Of a DNA stretch of 48,960 nt, positions 3,874-20,460 are shown one piece after another. Below the pieces are notes generated by a model. The model ran no database searches, was not told where the DNA came from, and was given only the letters and a program-made list of their open reading frames with translations. This DNA comes from an uncultured Methylococcaceae bacterium (GTDB lineage Bacteria > Pseudomonadota > Gammaproteobacteria > Methylococcales > Methylomonadaceae). The stretch is from assembly GCA_903945605.1 (NCBI GenBank), contig CAJAWH010000097.1, positions 1-48,960 on the forward strand. Reading direction: 5' to 3'. Made by a program: the position numbers and the translations under genes. The number at the start of each line of letters is the position of its first letter. Within the stretch, counting starts at the first letter, position 1.

Positions 3874-5334
3874 TCAATAGTGGTAAGCGGATTCGCCATG
3901 TTCGGCAATATCCAAGCCTTCGCGTTCAGCATCTTCAGGCACACGTAGCCCGATCAGCATATCGACCAGCTTAAAGGCAATGAACGAAACCAGACCCGAC
4001 CAAACCAGGGCCACCGCTACTCCCCATGCTTGGCTAGTCAATTGCGCGACAAAATTATATTCAGCTACTCCATTGGTCACATAATCCCAAACGCCGGTGC
4101 CGCCTAATGCGGGGTTGGCAACCACCGCAGTACCCAATGCGCCGATGATACCGCCTACACCGTGTACGCCGAAGGCATCCAATGAGTCATCGTAACCCAA
4201 TAGGCTTTTCAGGCCCGTCACCGACCAGAAACACACTGCACCGACTACTAGACCTAAGAAAATAGAGCCCATAGGGCCGGCCCAACCGCAAGCAGGGGTA
4301 ATCGCAACCAGACCGGCAATGGCGCCGGATGCAGCGCCTAACATGCTAGGTTTGCCGCGTATCAGCCATTCGGCACCCATCCAAGATAAGGTTGCCGCTG
4401 CACTGGCCAATAACGTGTTGACGAAAACCAATGCCGCCAAGCCGTTGGCTTCCAAGTTGGAGCCGACGTTAAAGCCGAACCAGCCCACCCACAGCAACGA
4501 CGCGCCGACCATGGTCATGGTGACGCTGTGCGGAGCCAACGATTCTTTATTGAAGCCGATGCGTTTGCCCACCATCAAACAGCCAATCAAACCGGCAATA
4601 CCAGCATTAATATGTACCACTGTACCGCCAGCAAAATCCAATGCGCCTTTTTGGAATAAGAAACCGGCAGTGGCCAAGGCTTTTTCGCCAGCCGCCGCAT
4701 CGGTATAAGCATCTGGGCCAGCCCAATACCAGACCATGTGTGCCATAGGCAAATAAGCAAAAGTGAACCAAATAAGCATGAACAGCAAAATGGCTGAGAA
4801 TTTGACCCGTTCCGCAAAAGAACCAATGATCAATGCCGGTGTAATGGCGGCAAAAGTCAGCTGGAAAGCCACATAAATGTATTCCGGCACATACGCGCCT
4901 TTGCTGAAGGTGGCGGCAAGCGAATCAGGCGTAATGCCCACCAAGAACAGCTTACTGAAACCGCCAAAGAATGGCGTGCCTTCGGTAAATGCCACGCTAT
5001 ATCCATAAACTGCCCATAGCACTGCCATCATTGAGAAAATGACAAACACCTGCATTAAAATGGACAACATGTTTTTGCTGCGCACCATGCCGCCGTAAAA
5101 TAGCGCCAAGCCAGGGATCACCATCAGAATGACCAAAACAGTGGCGACGATCATCCAAGCCATGTCACCTTTGTTCATGGTCATGACCGGTGCTGGGGCG
5201 GGTGCTTCCGCCACGGCAGGAGCGGTTACGGCAGTGACAGTTTCCGTCACGGTGGTGACAGTTTCTTCTGCCGATGAAAAGCCGGAAAAGCACAATAAGG
5301 TAGTCAGTGCAAAAATAGTGATAAGTTGTTTCAT
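3874..5334 (-). CDS. amtB: Ammonium transporter AmtB
   Basis: A 486-residue Amt/Rh channel of the inner membrane. A cleavable signal peptide (residues 1-22, ending 'GFSSA') is followed by an unusual ~27-residue Thr/Val/Ala/Pro linker and then about eleven membrane segments beginning with 'WMIVATVLVILMVIPGLALF'. The twin pore histidines are present in 'GGTVVHINAG' and 'FGVHGVGG'. The C-terminal tail ('VPEDAEREGLDIAEHGESAY') is the conserved segment that interacts with GlnK. The gene follows glnK by 17 bp in the same direction, the classic glnK-amtB operon, so transcription probably starts at the sigma-54 promoter upstream of glnK. The linker lengthens the N-terminus relative to E. coli AmtB; the channel core is ordinary. 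Confidence 0.97.
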   Translation of the reverse strand: MKQLITIFALTTLLCFSGFSSAEETVTTVTETVTAVTAPAVAEAPAPAPVMTMNKGDMAWMIVATVLVILMVIPGLALFYGGMVRSKNMLSILMQVFVIFSMMAVLWAVYGYSVAFTEGTPFFGGFSKLFLVGITPDSLAATFSKGAYVPEYIYVAFQLTFAAITPALIIGSFAERVKFSAILLFMLIWFTFAYLPMAHMVWYWAGPDAYTDAAAGEKALATAGFLFQKGALDFAGGTVVHINAGIAGLIGCLMVGKRIGFNKESLAPHSVTMTMVGASLLWVGWFGFNVGSNLEANGLAALVFVNTLLASAAATLSWMGAEWLIRGKPSMLGAASGAIAGLVAITPACGWAGPMGSIFLGLVVGAVCFWSVTGLKSLLGYDDSLDAFGVHGVGGIIGALGTAVVANPALGGTGVWDYVTNGVAEYNFVAQLTSQAWGVAVALVWSGLVSFIAFKLVDMLIGLRVPEDAEREGLDIAEHGESAYHY

Positions 5335-5351
5335 GAAGTCCCCCTGAATGA

Positions 5352-5708
<357 letters not shown>

Positions 5709-5731
5709 TTAATGACTCAAAGAATACTTAA

Positions 5732-5746
5732 GCATGGAATGTGCCA
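5732..5746 (-). promoter_or_regulatory. Sigma-54 promoter of glnK-amtB
   Basis: On the minus strand the sequence is TGGCAC-ATTCC-ATGC. It keeps the invariant GG (-24) and GC (-12) at the required 10-base spacing and matches the TGGCAC-N5-TTGC consensus at all but one conserved base. The predicted start point, about 12 bases on, gives a ~30-nt leader ending in a good ribosome-binding site. Confidence 0.8.
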
Positions 5747-5808
5747 ATATTTATTGTGTGCCTAATGGCTTTCACTGGCCCCATAAAAGTGGCCTGGGTG
5801 CTTATGTT

Positions 5809-5824
5809 TGCACCAAGATTGAAT
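5809..5824. promoter_or_regulatory. Candidate NtrC site (proximal, glnK)
   Basis: TGCACCAAGATTGAAT matches the left half and centre of the classical NtrC site TGCACCAACATGGTGC; the right half is degenerate. It is centred about 96 bp upstream of the predicted glnK start point and 32 bp from a second similar site. A GGTGC/GCACC inverted pair (5797-5814) overlaps it. Confidence 0.45.
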
Positions 5825-5840
5825 TGATGGTGATATTATT

Positions 5841-5856
5841 GATCCATTGTGGTGCG
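5841..5856. promoter_or_regulatory. Candidate NtrC site (distal, glnK)
   Basis: Read on the minus strand this is CGCACCACAATGGATC. It keeps GCACCA and ATGG of the NtrC consensus while the distal half is weak. It is centred about 128 bp upstream of the predicted glnK start point. The 32-bp distance to the proximal site equals that of the two main NtrC sites at E. coli glnAp2. Confidence 0.45.
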
Positions 5857-5930
5857 TTTTTTATTTACTTTCGGGTCAAAACTATATAGTATGCCAATGC
5901 TGTTTTTGGTTATTATTCTAGGAGGGTTGT

Positions 5931-6254
5931 ATGACTGTGTTGGCTGTCCAATGGAAAAAATTGTCTAGGTGTATGGTTGGGGGAGTGATGGCATCAGCTT
6001 GCGGCTGTTCGTTACCTGCCGTTGCCCAGCCTATTATTGCCCATGCACACGAAGTGGTGACCTGCAGGTTTGTGGGTGATATACAGGCGGATTCAGGCTA
6101 CGGAAAAAACGCGGATTGGCGTTCGAAAGCTTATTATGCGGCGATGGCGCGAGGGAATGAGTTGAAAGCCACGCATTTGCTGGTTGTGCGCTTGGAGCCG
6201 GTGGGGGCGTTTAACGGGGTGGTGTTTGCCAAGGCATTTAAATGTGGGTCTTAG
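5931..6254 (+). CDS. Small secreted protein, DUF4156-like
   Basis: A 107-residue protein with a strong ribosome-binding site (AGGAGGG) before the ATG. The N-terminus looks like an export signal: basic residues, then a hydrophobic stretch 'CMVGGVMASACGCSLPAVAQ' with a plausible cleavage after 'VAQ'. The mature part has 'CRFVGDIQADSGYGKN', an Ala-rich helix, 'ELKATHLLVVRLEP' and 'AFKC'. This layout (Cys near the start, 'sgyG', then 'A..lgATHlv') recalls the DUF4156 family of small envelope proteins. No function is known. The two remaining Cys could form a disulfide. It sits between glnK and the porin; whether it belongs to the nitrogen regulon is unclear. A terminator follows. Confidence 0.7.
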   Translation: MTVLAVQWKKLSRCMVGGVMASACGCSLPAVAQPIIAHAHEVVTCRFVGDIQADSGYGKNADWRSKAYYAAMARGNELKATHLLVVRLEPVGAFNGVVFAKAFKCGS

Positions 6255-6270
6255 GATTTGGCTAAATACA

Positions 6271-6294
6271 AAAATGCGCCCGTAGGCGCATTTT
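6271..6294. terminator. Bidirectional rho-independent terminator
   Basis: Perfect 10-bp stem AAAATGCGCC / GGCGCATTTT with a CGTA loop, placed between the convergent small secreted protein gene and the porin gene. A/T runs on both sides allow termination of both. Confidence 0.9.
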
Positions 6295-6325
6295 CGTTGT
6301 TGTGCAAGCCGTGAGGGTTAGCCGC

Positions 6326-7714
6326 TTAGAAAGTTACTGTGAAATCATTTGAGAAAGTGATTTGGTCGTTAACCGTTGTTGCCGTGGCAGAACCGGGATT
6401 GCCATGGATTACATAAGGCGAATAACCATGCGCGTCACCTACCACGTCATAACGCACGTTAGGACGCAGTCTTAGCCAAGGCAAAGGTTTCCAAGTCACG
6501 CCGGCGGTAAATTCATAATAAGTTGCGCCCACGCCTGGGGCAGCCCCGCAGCTGGATACAAATTGGTTGTTGGCTGCATAGCTATTGCCAGAGTTATCGG
6601 TGGCGGCACTGACACGACCAGGGGCGCATACCCTTAGGCCGTTTTGATCGCGGAACCACTCGGCACGGATACCAGCGGTCAGCTTGTCATTGACATCATA
6701 GTACAAATGCGAGTTGATACCGTACCATTCAGCGTCTTTATTGATGCCAGTGGTGGAGCTAGTGGCAAAAAAAGCATTATCAGCAAAACCATGGTCGTGT
6801 TGTAAGACCAAATGGGTTTTATCGTTGATGTTATGCTTCAAAACAACGCTGTATATAGCCCAGGGAGAAGGCTTGGTGTATTTGCTGGATTCGGTGCTAT
6901 TGCCGTAAGTACCGGCAATGTTCAAAGAGGTAGCTTTGTCGGTGGTGGTGTAAGTGGCCCCCATTATCCCAGACCAGTTGCCCATTTGCCGGTCAAAGCC
7001 ACCATCCCAGCCACCGGTGCCGCTGCCGGTCAGCAAGCCGCCCATAGCCGCCCAGTTAGAATCAATATTATAGTTGCCTAAAATGCCGGTGTGCGTGAAA
7101 GGCTCCCCGTATTGCATGGTATAAGCATGGGTGTAGAAGAAGTTGTCCGGCGCGGGTACTGATTCATAACCAATCGGCGTATAAAAGTGGCCCACTTTCA
7201 GGTTTAAGCCCGTACCAACCGGCACGTATGTTTCTAAATAAGCCTGCGGCAAGGCAATGTCGTAAAAGCGGTTGTTGCCACTGCCCAAGAAGTTTAAGTC
7301 CCAGTTGCTGCGCTGCATGGAATTGCCGGTATTGACATCGTAGGAAGGCACGCCATAAGCTTGAGTGAAAATGGAATCGGAACCGTACATAAAGTCAAAA
7401 CGGCCACCAAAATCCCATGCTTTGCCCTCTGCGGCCACTGCTTTTTGGATGAACAAGTTTAACTGGTTGACCTGAAACTCACTGGAACGGTCACCAAAAG
7501 TCACTGGGCCGTTAAAGCCGTCTGAGGGTTGGTTGCCGTTGTAAGTGATGCCGGCGTTTGCCCAGCCGCCTACCACAACGCCATAATGGTCAAACACATT
7601 TTCAGCTTGTTTGAAAAAACCGTCTGCTATGGCGTTAGTTGCCATGCCTGTAAATAGGATGCTTCCGACGGCCACTCTTAAAAGATGGCTTTTGCGTGTT
7701 GCGTTAATTTTCAT
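6326..7714 (-). CDS. BBP2/OmpL-type outer-membrane beta-barrel porin
   Basis: A 462-residue outer-membrane protein. I place the start at 7714 because AAGGGGAA lies just upstream and the first 30 residues then form a clean signal peptide ('LLRVAVGSILFTGMATNAIA'); an upstream in-frame ATG at 7765 would add 17 non-signal residues. The mature part shows alternating aromatic/hydrophobic beta strands ('VVVGGWANAGITYNG', 'LNLKVGHFYTPIGYESVPA', 'LTAGIRAEWFRDQNG') and ends in a C-terminal strand with terminal Phe, the outer-membrane assembly signal. The family (putative beta-barrel porin-2) forms passive channels of unknown specificity. It is divergent from glnA and has a good sigma-54 promoter of its own, so a role in taking up a nitrogen compound is likely (inference). 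Confidence 0.88.
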   Translation of the reverse strand: MKINATRKSHLLRVAVGSILFTGMATNAIADGFFKQAENVFDHYGVVVGGWANAGITYNGNQPSDGFNGPVTFGDRSSEFQVNQLNLFIQKAVAAEGKAWDFGGRFDFMYGSDSIFTQAYGVPSYDVNTGNSMQRSNWDLNFLGSGNNRFYDIALPQAYLETYVPVGTGLNLKVGHFYTPIGYESVPAPDNFFYTHAYTMQYGEPFTHTGILGNYNIDSNWAAMGGLLTGSGTGGWDGGFDRQMGNWSGIMGATYTTTDKATSLNIAGTYGNSTESSKYTKPSPWAIYSVVLKHNINDKTHLVLQHDHGFADNAFFATSSTTGINKDAEWYGINSHLYYDVNDKLTAGIRAEWFRDQNGLRVCAPGRVSAATDNSGNSYAANNQFVSSCGAAPGVGATYYEFTAGVTWKPLPWLRLRPNVRYDVVGDAHGYSPYVIHGNPGSATATTVNDQITFSNDFTVTF

Positions 7715-7816
7715 TTTCAGGTTCCCCTTGCTTAGGATTGAATAGTGTGTGTTGTTAAAATGCAACCATTAGTTAAAGTGTGCGAGATGGCTTTAAAAAC
7801 AACTGCAATGATTGAT

Positions 7817-7831
7817 GCATAAATCGTACCA
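7817..7831 (-). promoter_or_regulatory. Sigma-54 promoter of the porin gene
   Basis: On the minus strand the sequence is TGGTACG-ATTT-ATGC, matching the consensus TGGCACG-N4-TTGC except for one base in each half, with GG and GC exactly 10 bases apart. The predicted start point near 7805 gives a leader of about 90 nt before the chosen porin start. Confidence 0.75.
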
Positions 7832-7895
7832 ATTATTTTTTTCGTTATAAAGCAGTTGGTTGTTGTTTTTATGGGGGCGGACTGTGATGTTGGGT

Positions 7896-7911
7896 TGCAC
7901 TTTAGTGGTGC
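7896..7911. promoter_or_regulatory. Strong NtrC-like enhancer between porin and glnA
   Basis: TGCACTTTAGTGGTGC has both conserved halves (TGCAC and TGGTGC) with the same spacing as the reference site TGCACCAACATGGTGC. It is centred about 98 bp upstream of the predicted porin start point and about 100 bp upstream of the predicted glnA start point, so it could serve both promoters. A weaker TGCA-bounded copy is at 7928-7943, 32 bp away. Confidence 0.7.
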
Positions 7912-7978
7912 GTTTTATGGGGATTAATGCAAAAATGAGTGCAAGCCTTGTTGTGTGTCGGCAACGGGCTGTAAAGCT

Positions 7979-7993
7979 TGGCGGGGTGACGGC
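7979..7993 (+). promoter_or_regulatory. Possible sigma-54 promoter of glnA
   Basis: TGGCGGGGTGACGGC keeps the invariant GG and GC at 10-base spacing and the TGGC of the -24 box, but the -12 box reads CGGC rather than TTGC. It is the best candidate between the NtrC-like site and glnA. The leader would be about 110 nt. An additional sigma-70 promoter closer to glnA cannot be excluded. Confidence 0.45.
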
Positions 7994-8117
7994 TAGGCAG
8001 TTTTGTCGCCAATGTTCGCTGTGGCGAAGATTTTTTATTGGCTAACGCTACAAAAAAATGTATTGTTACGGGTGTTGGACATAACATTGACTTTTAAAAA
8101 AACAGGAGATAATAACA

Positions 8118-9527
8118 ATGTCAGTTGAGAACGTACTAAGAATGATTGAGGAAAACGATGTAAAATTCGTCGATTTCCGTTTTTGCGATACCCGTGGCAA
8201 AGAACAGCACGTCACTTTCCCCGCTCATACCATTGATGAAGACACCTTTGAAGAAGGCAACATGTTTGATGGTTCTTCAATTGCCGGCTGGAAGCACATC
8301 AACGAATCCGACATGATCTTGATGCCTGATCCTGAAACGGCTGTGATGGACCCTTTCTATGATGAAAACACCCTGATTATCCGCTGCGACATTATCGAAC
8401 CCAAAAACATGCAAGGCTACGAACGTGACCCGCGTTCTTTGGCAAAACGTGCCGAAGCCTATCTGCAATCAACCGGCCTTGCCGACACTGCATTTTTTGG
8501 CCCAGAAAACGAATTTTTCATCTTTGACGACATCCGTTGGGGTGTCGATATGAGTGGCAGCTTCTATAAAATAGATTCTGAAGAAGCGGGCTGGAACTCA
8601 GAAAAAGTCTATGAAGATGGCAACATTGGTCACCGTCCTGGCGTAAAAGGCGGTTACTTCCCTGTGCCGCCAGTTGATTCATTGCAAGATATGCGTTCCG
8701 CCATGTGTTTGACTCTGGAACAAATGGGCATGAAAACTGAAGTCCACCACCATGAAGTGGCGACTGCCGGTCAGTGTGAGATCGGTGTACGGTTCAACAC
8801 GCTGGTAAAAAAAGCTGACGAGGTGCTGACGCTTAAGTATGTGGTGGCCAACATTGCCCATGCTTATGGCAAAACAGCCACTTTCATGCCAAAACCAATG
8901 GTTGGCGACAACGGCAGCGGTATGCATGTGCACCAATCATTGGCTAAAGATGGTGCCAATCTGTTCACCGGTGACTTGTACGGTGGTCTGTCCGAAACGG
9001 CTTTGTACTATATCGGCGGCATCATCAAACACGCCAAAGCCATCAACGCCTTCACCAATGCCTCGACCAACAGCTACAAACGCTTGGTGCCAGGTTTCGA
9101 AGCCCCCGTTATGTTGGCCTATTCCGCCCGTAACCGCTCCGCTTCAATCCGTATTCCTTTTGTCAACAACCCGAAAGGCCGTCGTATTGAAGTGCGTTTC
9201 CCGGATTCAACCGCCAACCCTTATCTGGCATTCTCAGCCATGCTAATGGCTGGTTTGGATGGCATCCAAAACAAAATCCATCCAGGCGAAGCAATGGACA
9301 AAGATTTGTATGATTTGCCGCCTGAAGAAGAAAAAGCAATCCCGCAAGTCTGCCATGCCCTTGACCAAGCTTTGGAAGCTTTGGATAAAGACCGTGACTT
9401 TTTGACCCGTGGCGGCGTGTTCACCGATGACGTGATTGATGGCTATATTGCCCTCAAAATGGAAGAAGTGACCCGTCTGCGTATGAGCACACACCCGGTC
9501 GAATACGACATGTACTATAGCTTATAA
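8118..9527 (+). CDS. glnA: Glutamine synthetase type I
   Basis: 469 residues, the normal length of the dodecameric GSI-beta enzyme that makes glutamine from glutamate, ammonium and ATP. Recognisable segments include '[18 protein letters not shown]', 'FDGSSIAGW', the metal-binding '[12 protein letters not shown]', the ATP/active-site '[11 protein letters not shown]', and '[20 protein letters not shown]'. The adenylylation tyrosine is Tyr398 in '[15 protein letters not shown]', so activity should be controlled by GlnE and PII. A good ribosome-binding site (AGGAGA) precedes the ATG. It is divergent from the porin gene over a shared regulatory region with an NtrC-like site, and is followed by a terminator. 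Confidence 0.98.
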
Positions 9528-9567
9528 GGCTTAAGCCTGCCCTAAGCAGGCAATGGCTGGTAACAAG

Positions 9568-9599
9568 ACCCCGCAAGCCACAAGGCTTGGCGGGGTTTT
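9568..9599 (+). terminator. Terminator of glnA
   Basis: Stem ACCCCGC-AAGCC paired with GGCTT-G-GCGGGGT (12 pairs, one bulged G) around an ACAA loop, followed by TTTT. A second small hairpin, GCCTGC / GCAGGC, lies directly after the stop codon at 9535-9551. Confidence 0.85.
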
Positions 9600-9647
9600 G
9601 TCCATTTAGACCCATTGGCCGACAGCAGTTTTTTTATGTAATATTCC

Positions 9648-9675
9648 TTCACATATCAGAAATTTCGCGTAGAAT
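9648..9675 (+). promoter_or_regulatory. Sigma-70 type promoter of rpsP operon
   Basis: TTCACA (-35) and TAGAAT (-10), each 5 of 6 to consensus, separated by 16 bases. It is located 40 bp before the rpsP start. Confidence 0.55.
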
Positions 9676-9715
9676 AGGCGGATTAATAATTATTGAAAGT
9701 TTTTGAGGATCATAG

Positions 9716-9967
9716 ATGGTAACCATTCGTCTTTCCAGAGGTGGTGCAAAAAATCGCCCTTTTTACCAAGTTGTTGTCACTGACAGCCGCAGCAGCCGTG
9801 ATGGCCGTTATATCGAACGCGTAGGTTTTTTTAACCCACTGGCGCGTGGCAACGAAGAACGCTTGCGTTTGGACAATGAACGTATCCAGTACTGGCAATC
9901 GCAAGGTGCCCAACCTTCTGAACGCGTCGCCAAATTGATCAAAGATTCCTTAAAGGCTGCCGCTTAA
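9716..9967 (+). CDS. rpsP: Small ribosomal subunit protein bS16
   Basis: 83 residues with the standard S16 opening '[20 protein letters not shown]' and '[14 protein letters not shown]'. It assembles early into the 30S subunit body and binds 16S rRNA. It is the first gene of the conserved rpsP-rimM-trmD-rplS operon, with a consensus-like promoter upstream and a GAGGA ribosome-binding site. Confidence 0.98.
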
Positions 9968-16824: not shown

Positions 16825-19800
16825 ATGATTACGCCTGTTATTTTGACTGCTTCAGCTGCTATGGCTTATGCCAAAACCCACGCCACCCCGATTGCCGTCG
16901 AGGACAACGGCGGCAATATTGCCAGTAACCTCAGCGTGCTGCTTGCTTTGGGCAGCAAGCTGGTGTCGGTGCAGGACACTTCCAGCATCAATCCCTTCTA
17001 TTGGCCTATCAGCGTTGCCGAGGTATTGGCGCTGGGGCCCAAGATGACCGATGGCTGGGGCAATCCCGATACCTTCAATAACATCATCGGTTCGGCGGCG
17101 CATATAGCGGCCAATGCCAGCAAGCTGTTGGCTTTGGGGGAAAGGATCACTACTGGTGGCATCCATGTCAGCGACAGCGTCGCCAATATTGTCGCCAACG
17201 CTACCGTGCTTGCCACGTTGGGCAGCGAGCTGGCCTTGACAGTCATTGACAGTGCCATTGCCATCAACGCCAACCAAGCCGTGCTGCTGTCTTTGGCGCA
17301 TACATTCGGTGGCGGGTTTAAGGGTTTCACCCTGCCCGATGGCTCCAACATCAGCATCCAGTCCTCCGACGGTGCGTCGCTGACACTGACAGCTGCCAAT
17401 GCCGTCGCCTTTGTTGCCGAAGGCCTGACCGCGCCCCTACATATCGTGGACACTGGCAGCAACTTTGCCAGCTATCTCGACGCGCTTGCGGCAATGGGCG
17501 GGCAGCTGTTGTCGGTGCAGGACACCGATGGTCAGTGGTATTGGAACGGCTGGGAATCTTACTACGGCCCTGTCCCGATCGGCACGGCTATCAGCGTCGC
17601 CGATGTGTTGGCGCTCGCCCCTAAAATGGTCGATTTCCAAGGTGACCCGGCACAGTTCACCACCATTCTTGACACCGCCGCCAACATCAACGCCAACCTG
17701 GTGGCCATTCTGTCGGTCAAAGGGCTGCAAACGTTTGTGCTGCCAGACGGTATCAGCATCAGCATTCAGTCCTACGACGGCGTGTCGCTGACGCTGACCG
17801 CCGCCAACGCAGTTGCCTTTATTGCCGAAGGTCTGACTGCGCCCCTGCATATCGTGGATACTGGTAGCGACATTGCCAGCTACCTTGACACGCTGGCGAC
17901 CATGGGCGGGCAGCTACTGTCGGTGCAAGACACCGACAGCCAGCAGTATTGGAACGGTTGGGGCTACAACAATGGCCCCATTCCTTTTGGTTCTGCTATC
18001 AGCGTCGCCGATGTGCTGGCACTCGCCCCTAAAATGGTCGATTTCCAAGGTAACCCCGAACAGTTCACCAATATCTTTGACACCGCTGCCAACATCAACG
18101 CCAACCAGGCCGCGTTGCTGTCCTTGGGCAACGCGCTCTGTGGCTTCACCTTGCCCGACGGTAGCCGCATTGGCATTGAGTCGTCCGACGGCGTGTCGCT
18201 GACACTGACCGCCACCAACGCGGTTTCCCTTGTTGCCGAAGGCTTGACCATGCCCATGCATATCGTGGACACCGGCAGCGACATTGCTGGTTATCTCGAT
18301 ACGCTGGCGGCAATGGGCGGGCAGCTGCTGTTGGTGCAAGACACCGACACCCAGCAGTATTGGGACGGTTGGAACTACTACAATCAGCCCATTCCTTTCG
18401 GTTCTGCCATCAGCGTTGCCGATGTGCTGGCACTTGCCCCCAAGACGGTTGATTTCCAAGGTAACCCCGAACAGTTCACCAACATCATTGATAGCACCGC
18501 CGTTGTCGCCGCCAACGTAGTGCAACTACTGGCACTAGGCGGACAGATACCCGTCGGGGCCATTCATGTCACTGACAGTGCCGCCAATGTTGCCGCCAAT
18601 GCCTCTGCGCTTGCTACCTTAGGCAGCGAACTGACTTTGACCGTCACCGACAGTGCCGCCAACATCAACGCCAACCAATCCGCCATCTTGTCGGTCGGCG
18701 GGCTGAAGGCGTTCGTTTTGCCCGATGGTACCAGCATCAGCATCCAGTCCTCCGATGGCGCATTGTTGACCCTGACGGCCGCCAGTGCCGTTGCCCTTGT
18801 CGCCGAAGGCCTGACTGCGCCTCTGCATATCGTGGACACTGGCGGCAATATTGCCGGCTGCAATCTCGACGCGCTGGTTGCCATGGGCGGGCAGCTGTTG
18901 TCGGTGCAGGACACCGATGGTCAGTGGTATTGGAACGGCTGGGAATCTTACTACTCCCCCATCCCTTTCGGCTCGCCTATCAGCGTCGCCGATGCGCTTG
19001 CACTCGCCCCCAAGACGGTCGATTTCCTAGGCAACCCCGAACAGTTCACCCACATTGTCGACAGTGCCGCCGATGTTGCCGCCCATGCCGCCCAACTACT
19101 GGCACTGGGCGTACAGATACCCGTCGGTGCTGTCCACGTCATTGACAGTGCCGCCAACGTCGTTGCCAACGCCACTGCGCTAGCCACTTTGGGTAACGAG
19201 GTGAACGTAAGCGTCACCGACAATGCCGCTAATATTGTCGCCAACGCCACTGCGCTGACCACCTTGGGTAGCGAGCTGACGCTGACGTTGAACGTCAGCG
19301 ACCGGGCTGCCAATATACAAGCCAATCTCGACAGTTTACAGGTCGTCGCGGGGCAAATTGGCAGCCTGACCTTGACCCTCACCAATGCCGGAATCCCTCG
19401 GCTGGCTATTACCGCCGCACAATTGTCCGGCGATGCAGCTGTATTGGACTTGATCGTTGGTGCCTATACCTTGGCTGTCAGTGATGTGGCGGTGAGCAAC
19501 TTGACCAGTGTGTTTGCCAACCTCCAAGTGCAAGCAGTGTCCGTGTCCGACAGTGCCAGCAAAATCCAAGCGGCACTCAACACCCTACAAGCCGACTACG
19601 CTAAAATCTCCAGCATCAGCTTGACCAACAGTGGCACGCCGGCACTGACCATGTTCGCCAGCCACTTCTTGGCGGATGCACGCACGTTGGGTAAGATTGT
19701 CACGCCTTATAGCATTGCCTTGGCTGACAAAGGCACGCCTACCCTATCCATTGCAGCCAGCCAATTCGCGATTGACGCTCCTGCCATGTCCAAGATAATC

Positions 19801-20460
19801 ACCCCCTACAATCTGGCTTTGAGCGACAATGGCATTATCGCCCTTACTGCCAGCCAGTACAGCCAAGATGGTGCAGTCTTGGGTAAGCTCAGCAGTGCTT
19901 ATAGTATCAGTATCAGCGGCGAACTGGTTGCCAACGTGGCGACCGATGTCAAGAACAGCCATGTCACCGCCATCGGCATCACCGACACCGTCGCCCACAT
20001 TAGTGCCGGCCTCAGCAGTTTGGCAAGTAACCTTGGTAAGCTGTCCGGTATTGCCCTGACCGATTCGGGCATCCCCACACTGTCCTTGGCTGCAACACAA
20101 GTGACCAGCACTCTCGGTGTGCTGAATGCCATCACCACGCCCTATCTGTTGTCGGTTAAGGACACCGTTGCCAACCTGAACAAGCTGGCCTTGGGCGGTG
20201 TGCATGACAGCCTGATTGAAATTATGCCTACGTTAATACTGGCCACCCTCACCGAAAACACCCAAGTCGCCGACCTCAACCTGTCACAGATCAAACTGAC
20301 CGGCGATTCCATCACCGAAAAGGCTTATCAAGGCACTGGCACCGAAGTGGACATTGTTGGCAGCAACAACACCGTGTTGCACCAACTGTTCTTCACCCAT
20401 GACAGCGAAGCCCAGCTGCATTTGTTGGGTATTGGCAGCACCGTGGTGCATGTGATGTAA
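16825..20460 (+). CDS. Large repetitive protein, probable secreted/surface protein
   Basis: 1211 residues built almost entirely of repeats. One type is a short 'SD.AANI.ANL..L..L' helix followed by 'LTLT' strands, seen throughout. This repeat is known from very large extracellular proteins of diverse proteobacteria that are often exported by type I secretion. A second, longer unit of about 136 residues occurs four times (starting near residues 168, 302, 442 and 630). Each contains 'EGLTAPLHIVDTG', 'MGGQLLSVQDTD', an aromatic-rich 'QWYWNGWESYYGP'-type loop and 'ISVADVLALAPK.VDF.GNP'. A degenerate first copy lies near residues 45-85. There is no classical N-terminal signal peptide. The C-terminal ~75 residues are non-repetitive, hydrophobic/acidic and lack Lys clusters, compatible with a C-terminal secretion signal (inference). 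No secretion genes are nearby. Very few Cys and high Ala/Thr/Asp are typical of surface proteins. G+C is visibly higher than in flanking DNA. Confidence 0.75.
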   Translation: MITPVILTASAAMAYAKTHATPIAVEDNGGNIASNLSVLLALGSKLVSVQDTSSINPFYWPISVAEVLALGPKMTDGWGNPDTFNNIIGSAAHIAANASKLLALGERITTGGIHVSDSVANIVANATVLATLGSELALTVIDSAIAINANQAVLLSLAHTFGGGFKGFTLPDGSNISIQSSDGASLTLTAANAVAFVAEGLTAPLHIVDTGSNFASYLDALAAMGGQLLSVQDTDGQWYWNGWESYYGPVPIGTAISVADVLALAPKMVDFQGDPAQFTTILDTAANINANLVAILSVKGLQTFVLPDGISISIQSYDGVSLTLTAANAVAFIAEGLTAPLHIVDTGSDIASYLDTLATMGGQLLSVQDTDSQQYWNGWGYNNGPIPFGSAISVADVLALAPKMVDFQGNPEQFTNIFDTAANINANQAALLSLGNALCGFTLPDGSRIGIESSDGVSLTLTATNAVSLVAEGLTMPMHIVDTGSDIAGYLDTLAAMGGQLLLVQDTDTQQYWDGWNYYNQPIPFGSAISVADVLALAPKTVDFQGNPEQFTNIIDSTAVVAANVVQLLALGGQIPVGAIHVTDSAANVAANASALATLGSELTLTVTDSAANINANQSAILSVGGLKAFVLPDGTSISIQSSDGALLTLTAASAVALVAEGLTAPLHIVDTGGNIAGCNLDALVAMGGQLLSVQDTDGQWYWNGWESYYSPIPFGSPISVADALALAPKTVDFLGNPEQFTHIVDSAADVAAHAAQLLALGVQIPVGAVHVIDSAANVVANATALATLGNEVNVSVTDNAANIVANATALTTLGSELTLTLNVSDRAANIQANLDSLQVVAGQIGSLTLTLTNAGIPRLAITAAQLSGDAAVLDLIVGAYTLAVSDVAVSNLTSVFANLQVQAVSVSDSASKIQAALNTLQADYAKISSISLTNSGTPALTMFASHFLADARTLGKIVTPYSIALADKGTPTLSIAASQFAIDAPAMSKIITPYNLALSDNGIIALTASQYSQDGAVLGKLSSAYSISISGELVANVATDVKNSHVTAIGITDTVAHISAGLSSLASNLGKLSGIALTDSGIPTLSLAATQVTSTLGVLNAITTPYLLSVKDTVANLNKLALGGVHDSLIEIMPTLILATLTENTQVADLNLSQIKLTGDSITEKAYQGTGTEVDIVGSNNTVLHQLFFTHDSEAQLHLLGIGSTVVHVM
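17325..19080 (+). repeat. Four long imperfect tandem coding repeats
   Basis: Within the repeat-protein gene, near-identical DNA segments recur at spacings of about 408, 411 and 566 bases, judged from the positions of the 'EGLT.P.HIVDTG' codons near 17420, 17828, 18239 and 18805. The last interval is longer because an extra 'SD.AANV.ANA.ALATLGSEL' block is inserted. Such DNA repeats can expand or contract by recombination. Confidence 0.8.

Follow-up and report, generated by a model that had tools for sequence, protein, structure and literature searches.

A conserved NtrC/sigma-54 promoter predicted for a BBP2-family porin divergent from glnA in Methylomonadaceae, with glnA probably read from a sigma-70-type promoter

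The enterobacterial glnAp2 enhancer, which works through NtrC and sigma-54, is built of GCAC-N7-GTGC dyads placed some 100 bp ahead of a -24/-12 promoter, and sigma-54 promoters follow a consensus close to TGGCACG-N4-TTGCW in which GG at -24 and GC at -12 stand at a fixed spacing. In Methylococcus capsulatus, glnA reportedly has both sigma-54-like and sigma-70-like promoters, according to older work. The locus described here shares with glnAp2 a dyad upstream of a -24/-12 promoter and, in many relatives, a pair of sites about 30 bp apart. It differs in its target, predicted to be a porin, in having a single good dyad and in lacking a credible sigma-54 box at glnA. Porins occur in a described NtrC regulon: the Burkholderia cenocepacia regulon table lists several that change, including BCAL3473 (-4.2) and BCAM1376 (+5.6) (PMC5491218), and BCAL3473 is discussed with conflicting direction in a second paper (PMC10117139). 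Our porin is like BCAL3473, which combines an NtrC-regulon change with sigma-54-like elements in its promoter, but the -24/-12 spacer of BCAL3473 is reported to be extended and the accessible parts of both papers do not mention a divergent glnA (PMC10117139, PMC5491218). FmdC, presented as a porin for short-chain amides and urea (PMC11064514), is likewise an outer-membrane porin tied to the uptake of nitrogen compounds, a likeness of predicted role. Among open-licence papers, no title or abstract was recognisable as describing the porin/glnA region, and the accessible part of PMC8788690 contained nothing on such a porin.

The window, that is the whole stretch of 48,960 nucleotides that was analysed, comes from a methanotroph genome of 2.88 Mb in 175 contigs. 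It carries amtB and glnK pointing leftward, a small ORF, the porin gene pointing leftward and glnA pointing rightward, followed by rpsP-rimM-trmD-rplS, these four genes being named from reading the sequence. Candidate sigma-54 boxes were scored with a matrix set by hand from the consensus given above (maximum score 18.4). The features that the argument needs are as follows:

5731-5746, minus strand: sigma-54 box of glnK-amtB, TGGCACATTCCATGCT, score 14.7; part of this nitrogen cluster but not of the porin/glnA intergenic region
6326-7714, minus strand: porin gene, 462 aa, BBP2-family beta-barrel (Pfam PF07642, E = 7.1e-94)
7816-7831, minus strand: porin sigma-54 -24/-12 box, TGGTACGATTTATGCA, score 13.5 of 18.4; predicted start near 7805
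7897-7911, no strand assigned: NtrC dyad GCAC-N7-GTGC, 8/8 match, centred 87 bp from the C of the porin -12 element
7928-7943, no strand assigned: second NtrC copy as claimed earlier; half-sites separated by N6 and not N7, 4/8 in the NtrC register
7979-7994, plus strand: claimed glnA sigma-54 box, TGGCGGGGTGACGGCT, score 8.1 of 18.4; judged a chance match
8038-8066, plus strand: probable sigma-70-type glnA promoter (TTGGCT, 17 bp, TATTGT) within a conserved block of T-tract and A-tract
8118-9527, plus strand: glnA, glutamine synthetase, 469 aa (Pfam Gln-synt_C and Gln-synt_N)

The porin scored 315.3 bits against PF07642 (gathering cut-off 26.2), which places it in the BBP2 family. The host genome encodes one rpoN (PF04552, 4.5e-66), as a sigma-54 promoter requires, and a single TIGR01818 match above the cut-off, the 734-bit ntrC, with a putative histidine kinase ORF, recognised from reading the sequence, immediately upstream. 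An Rfam search of 5300-9800 for a structured RNA leader gave no match at the gathering score. The small ORF between glnK and the porin (5931-6254, 107 aa) had no match in a Pfam search, and similar ORFs occupy the equivalent place in six other loci (L036-L041).

Porin relatives were found at E <= 1e-40 in 198 of 237 genomes of the family. We compared 112 loci, made up of the best 30 of the porin search, 80 stretches chosen from the match table and two more (L019 and L020). A divergent glnA was present at 85 of them and was not found at 27, in some of which the contig or stretch ends. After removal of three identical intergenic regions, 82 distinct divergent porin/glnA intergenic regions remained (the window's own and 81 others), which span 12 genera matched by hand to the genome table and include related genomes that are not independent; start codons in the compared loci were set by script, and some may be wrong. 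Chance levels for the boxes of the window came from 2000 dinucleotide shuffles of its porin/glnA intergenic region.

The earlier note had suggested a symmetrical arrangement here, in which one NtrC enhancer may serve two sigma-54 boxes, one for the porin and one for glnA. Its porin half held up well. The letters of the box are present on the minus strand, and an equal or better porin-side site arose in only 0.55% of the shuffles (P = 0.0055). The box has an aligned counterpart in all three relatives that were aligned. A porin-side box scoring at least 12 occurs in 79 of the 82 intergenic regions against 1.4 expected, the exceptions being L044, L083 and L124, and a score of at least 8 is reached in 81 (13.6 expected). 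Beyond the divergent arrangement, counted without a shuffle control in each case, a porin-side box of at least 11 lay within 600 bases at 19 of the 27 loci where no divergent glnA was found and at 4 of the 14 loci L021-L034, and a box was found at none of nine Nitrosomonas porin homologues with usable upstream DNA.

The site in which the earlier note saw both NtrC half-sites, TGCACTTTAGTGGTGC at 7896-7911, encloses a perfect dyad, and the distances given in that note to the two predicted starts are arithmetically correct. An NtrC site of at least 7/8 was found in 67 of the 79 intergenic regions having a porin box, compared with 7.4% of shuffles; the other 12 had none. Regions with such a site at a distance of 60-130 bp number 54 of the 79 when measured from the porin -12 element and 13 of the 79 when measured from the best glnA-side box. 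The best site per region is 83-87 bp from the porin -12 element in 42 of the 79; the distance is not uniform, with an interquartile range of 85-118 bp and a 10th-90th percentile range of 84-206 bp (n = 79). Measured to the conserved block before glnA, the same distances are dispersed (interquartile range 104-212 bp), the fullest 10-bp bin holding 12 of 79. The spacing of the NtrC site is thus more regular relative to the porin box than relative to glnA.

Taking all sites of at least 7/8, distances from the porin box fall into groups at 73-77, 83-87, 96, 105-108 and 115-117 bp, with a further group at 171-176 and 202-207 bp that is off phase and scattered sites up to 296 bp. Helical phasing, computed on the 61 of 79 regions whose best site is 60-130 bp from the porin box, gave R = 0.79 for a period of 10.5 bp when measured to that box and 0.14 when measured to glnA, but R was similarly 0.72-0.80 over periods of 10 to 11.5 bp; given this flat response, one dominant cluster, rows selected by distance and non-independent relatives, the phasing is only suggestive. 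In genus g11 (L055, L057, L067, L076, L091 and L101), the phase differs from that of the main group: NtrC-like sites are found about 173-176 bp from the porin -12 element instead of about 85 bp, and some members have another at about 207 bp.

A weaker second copy at 7928-7943, claimed to give the porin the geometry of glnK, fared less well: its half-sites are wrongly spaced, and the window itself does not have a pair of dyads about 30 bp apart under either the strict or the relaxed definition. Pairs 29-34 bp apart are nevertheless real in relatives, with both sites at least 7/8 in 16 of the 82 regions (0 mononucleotide shuffles) and with one at least 7/8 and the other at least 6/8 in 46 of 82 (0.05% of mononucleotide shuffles), and for this reason 7928-7943 may be a decayed second NtrC site. 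The comparison with glnK is weak, since upstream of that gene a good sigma-54 box is accompanied by NtrC-like sites of only 6/8, about 53 and 116 bp from the -12 element.

We further searched whole genomes for the dyad and box together (GCAC-N7-GTGC, 50-80 bases, TGGYA-N7-TGC), with the reversed pattern as control. The 2.88-Mb host genome contains two such places and no control match: one is the porin, and the other (C146:18755-18861; L196) ends 47 bases before the start of the putative ntrB. An NtrC dyad and a sigma-54 box appear to precede the putative ntrBC operon as well, which suggests autoregulation of that operon. Across the family, at least one match was found in 120 of 237 genomes and none in 117, against seven control matches in all; these matches are located at porins and elsewhere. 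A generic sigma-54 scan of the genome allowing two mismatches lacked the stringency to be useful, returning 797 sites where the control had 363. Nine matches to the NtrC model of at least 299 bits, NtrC among them, are encoded in the genome, so another enhancer-binding protein could conceivably use the dyad and box, or the two could be chance matches. We regard this as exceedingly improbable, as both elements are conserved across genera and the same pattern recurs upstream of ntrBC with no control match. On the basis of this conservation and recurrence, the prediction that an NtrC/sigma-54 promoter serves the porin is strongly supported.

The glnA side gave a different picture. The letters of the claimed box are where the earlier note placed them, including GG-N10-GC at 7980-7993 at the right distance, but the score is at chance level: an equal or better glnA-side site arose in 29.5% of the shuffles (P = 0.295), and 94 sites on both strands of the window score as high. 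The box sits in an unconserved indel and is unaligned in relatives. Across the 82 intergenic regions, a glnA-side score of at least 8 occurs in 12 (12.4 expected) and one of at least 12 in two, L036 and L077 (1.3 expected). In the closest relative (L018, 3688-4169; L036), whose GlnA is 99.6% identical, the intergenic region is 79 bases longer than that of the window, a difference that may reflect a recent indel. In this relative, a strong sigma-54-like box, TGGCACGGCAATGGCT, lies 115 bp before glnA, placed differently from the box claimed in the window. As a true glnA promoter this candidate was set aside: nothing in the window corresponds to its segment, and glnA-side boxes of at least 12 are confined to L036 and L077 among the 82 regions.

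A single enhancer acting on two symmetrically placed sigma-54 promoters would accommodate the well-placed GG-N10-GC, the strong box of the closest relative and the glnA boxes that occur in other gene arrangements (see below). Given the chance-level score in the window, the alignment and the pattern of conservation, we nonetheless reject it for glnA and consider this reading very improbable overall.

A different element lies closer to glnA. A block resembling AAAAAAATGGTATCGTTA begins roughly 62-87 bases before the gene, in most cases following a T-tract and GTGGCTA or TTGGCTA, and matches at 14/18 or better in 75 of the 82 regions (14/18 in the window) against 0.3% of mononucleotide shuffles, a count that describes conservation and is no independent test, as the consensus was derived from the same sequences. 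The TGGTATCGTTA block was also considered as a sigma-54 box and rejected, with scores of at least 8 between -30 and -75 in one of 82 regions (0.5 expected); its mean sigma-54 score of 1.8, against -1.9 in shuffles, is what a retained TGGTAT would yield. In the divergent arrangement, glnA is therefore probably transcribed from a sigma-70 promoter, as far as sequence can indicate. NtrC bound at 7897-7911 might still influence glnA independently of sigma-54, for instance through an effect on this sigma-70 promoter; the dyad sits between both genes, and nitrogen control of glnA is common. The dispersed distance from dyad to block (10th-90th percentile 88-232 bp) argues against such an action, which we think unlikely.

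On evidence that is sequence throughout, we favor two back-to-back promoters, a predicted NtrC/sigma-54 promoter for the porin and a sigma-70-type promoter for glnA, with glnA probably outside the sigma-54 control of the enhancer, and give this reading a probability of about 0.8. Under nitrogen limitation, phosphorylated NtrC would bind the dyad and, by looping, contact sigma-54 RNA polymerase, which would transcribe the porin leftward from 7816-7831. The sigma-70-type promoter near 8038-8066 would transcribe glnA rightward, the enhancer probably not driving that gene through sigma-54. Acting together with glnK-amtB, the porin would likely let small nitrogen compounds cross the outer membrane more readily in times of nitrogen shortage, and we infer a nitrogen compound as the solute because the porin is often associated with glnA or glnK-amtB. 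These results suggest that nitrogen limitation leads many methanotrophs to make more of a specific outer-membrane channel, which would make entry through the outer membrane a controlled step in the supply of nitrogen. Moreover, each side of a divergent region needs its own test, one being strongly conserved here and the other at chance level.

We also analyzed 20 glnA regions of the family picked where a divergent porin was not expected. Twelve had a same-strand porin upstream, and five had a divergent glnK with no porin found between. A glnA-side box of at least 11 lay within 500 bases in six of the 20 (null 2.1%), namely all five with a divergent glnK (L178, L180, L181, L183 and L193) and L191; glnA in the family is thus not uniformly free of sigma-54, a point in favor of the shared enhancer. 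Those five loci are a better prospect than the window for a shared nitrogen-control region, serving divergent glnK/glnA operons. In L175-L177, L179, L182, L184, L185, L187, L188, L190, L192 and L194, the porin gene and glnA follow one another on one strand, downstream of a divergent glnK, and transcripts started at the porin might therefore run on into glnA.

In another family of the same order (f4, possibly Methylococcaceae; 34 of 38 genomes matched, 30 loci obtained), glnA has a sigma-54-like score of at least 8 between -30 and -75 in 15 of 30 loci (0.5 expected) and of at least 10 in 10 of 30 (0.2 expected), mostly 45-63 bp before the gene. An NtrC-like site of at least 7/8 lies upstream in 23 of 30 (null 4.2%), mostly 133-157 bp before glnA. 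Both counts speak for a shared enhancer, although many of these boxes, having no C at -12, may instead be sigma-70 elements. The f4 glnA promoters thus resemble the porin promoter of the window in combining an NtrC-like site with a sigma-54-like box, but their arrangement serves glnA itself, and the stretches compared around f4 glnA yielded no porin relative.

Since f4 and the genera with a divergent glnK show sigma-54-like boxes at glnA, loss of an earlier sigma-54 promoter from glnA genes that face a divergent porin is plausible, if not proven. A fuller scenario, tentative and in our view somewhat doubtful, would have NtrC/sigma-54 control lost from the divergent glnA and held by the porin, with glnA keeping the TGGTAT of the old -24 element within its sigma-70 promoter and tandem glnA genes regaining control by read-through. 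If true, glutamine synthetase would be made without NtrC/sigma-54 control, and outer-membrane permeability would be the nitrogen-regulated step. Elsewhere in the window (16825-20460), a large ORF of 1211 aa is built of many similar repeats.
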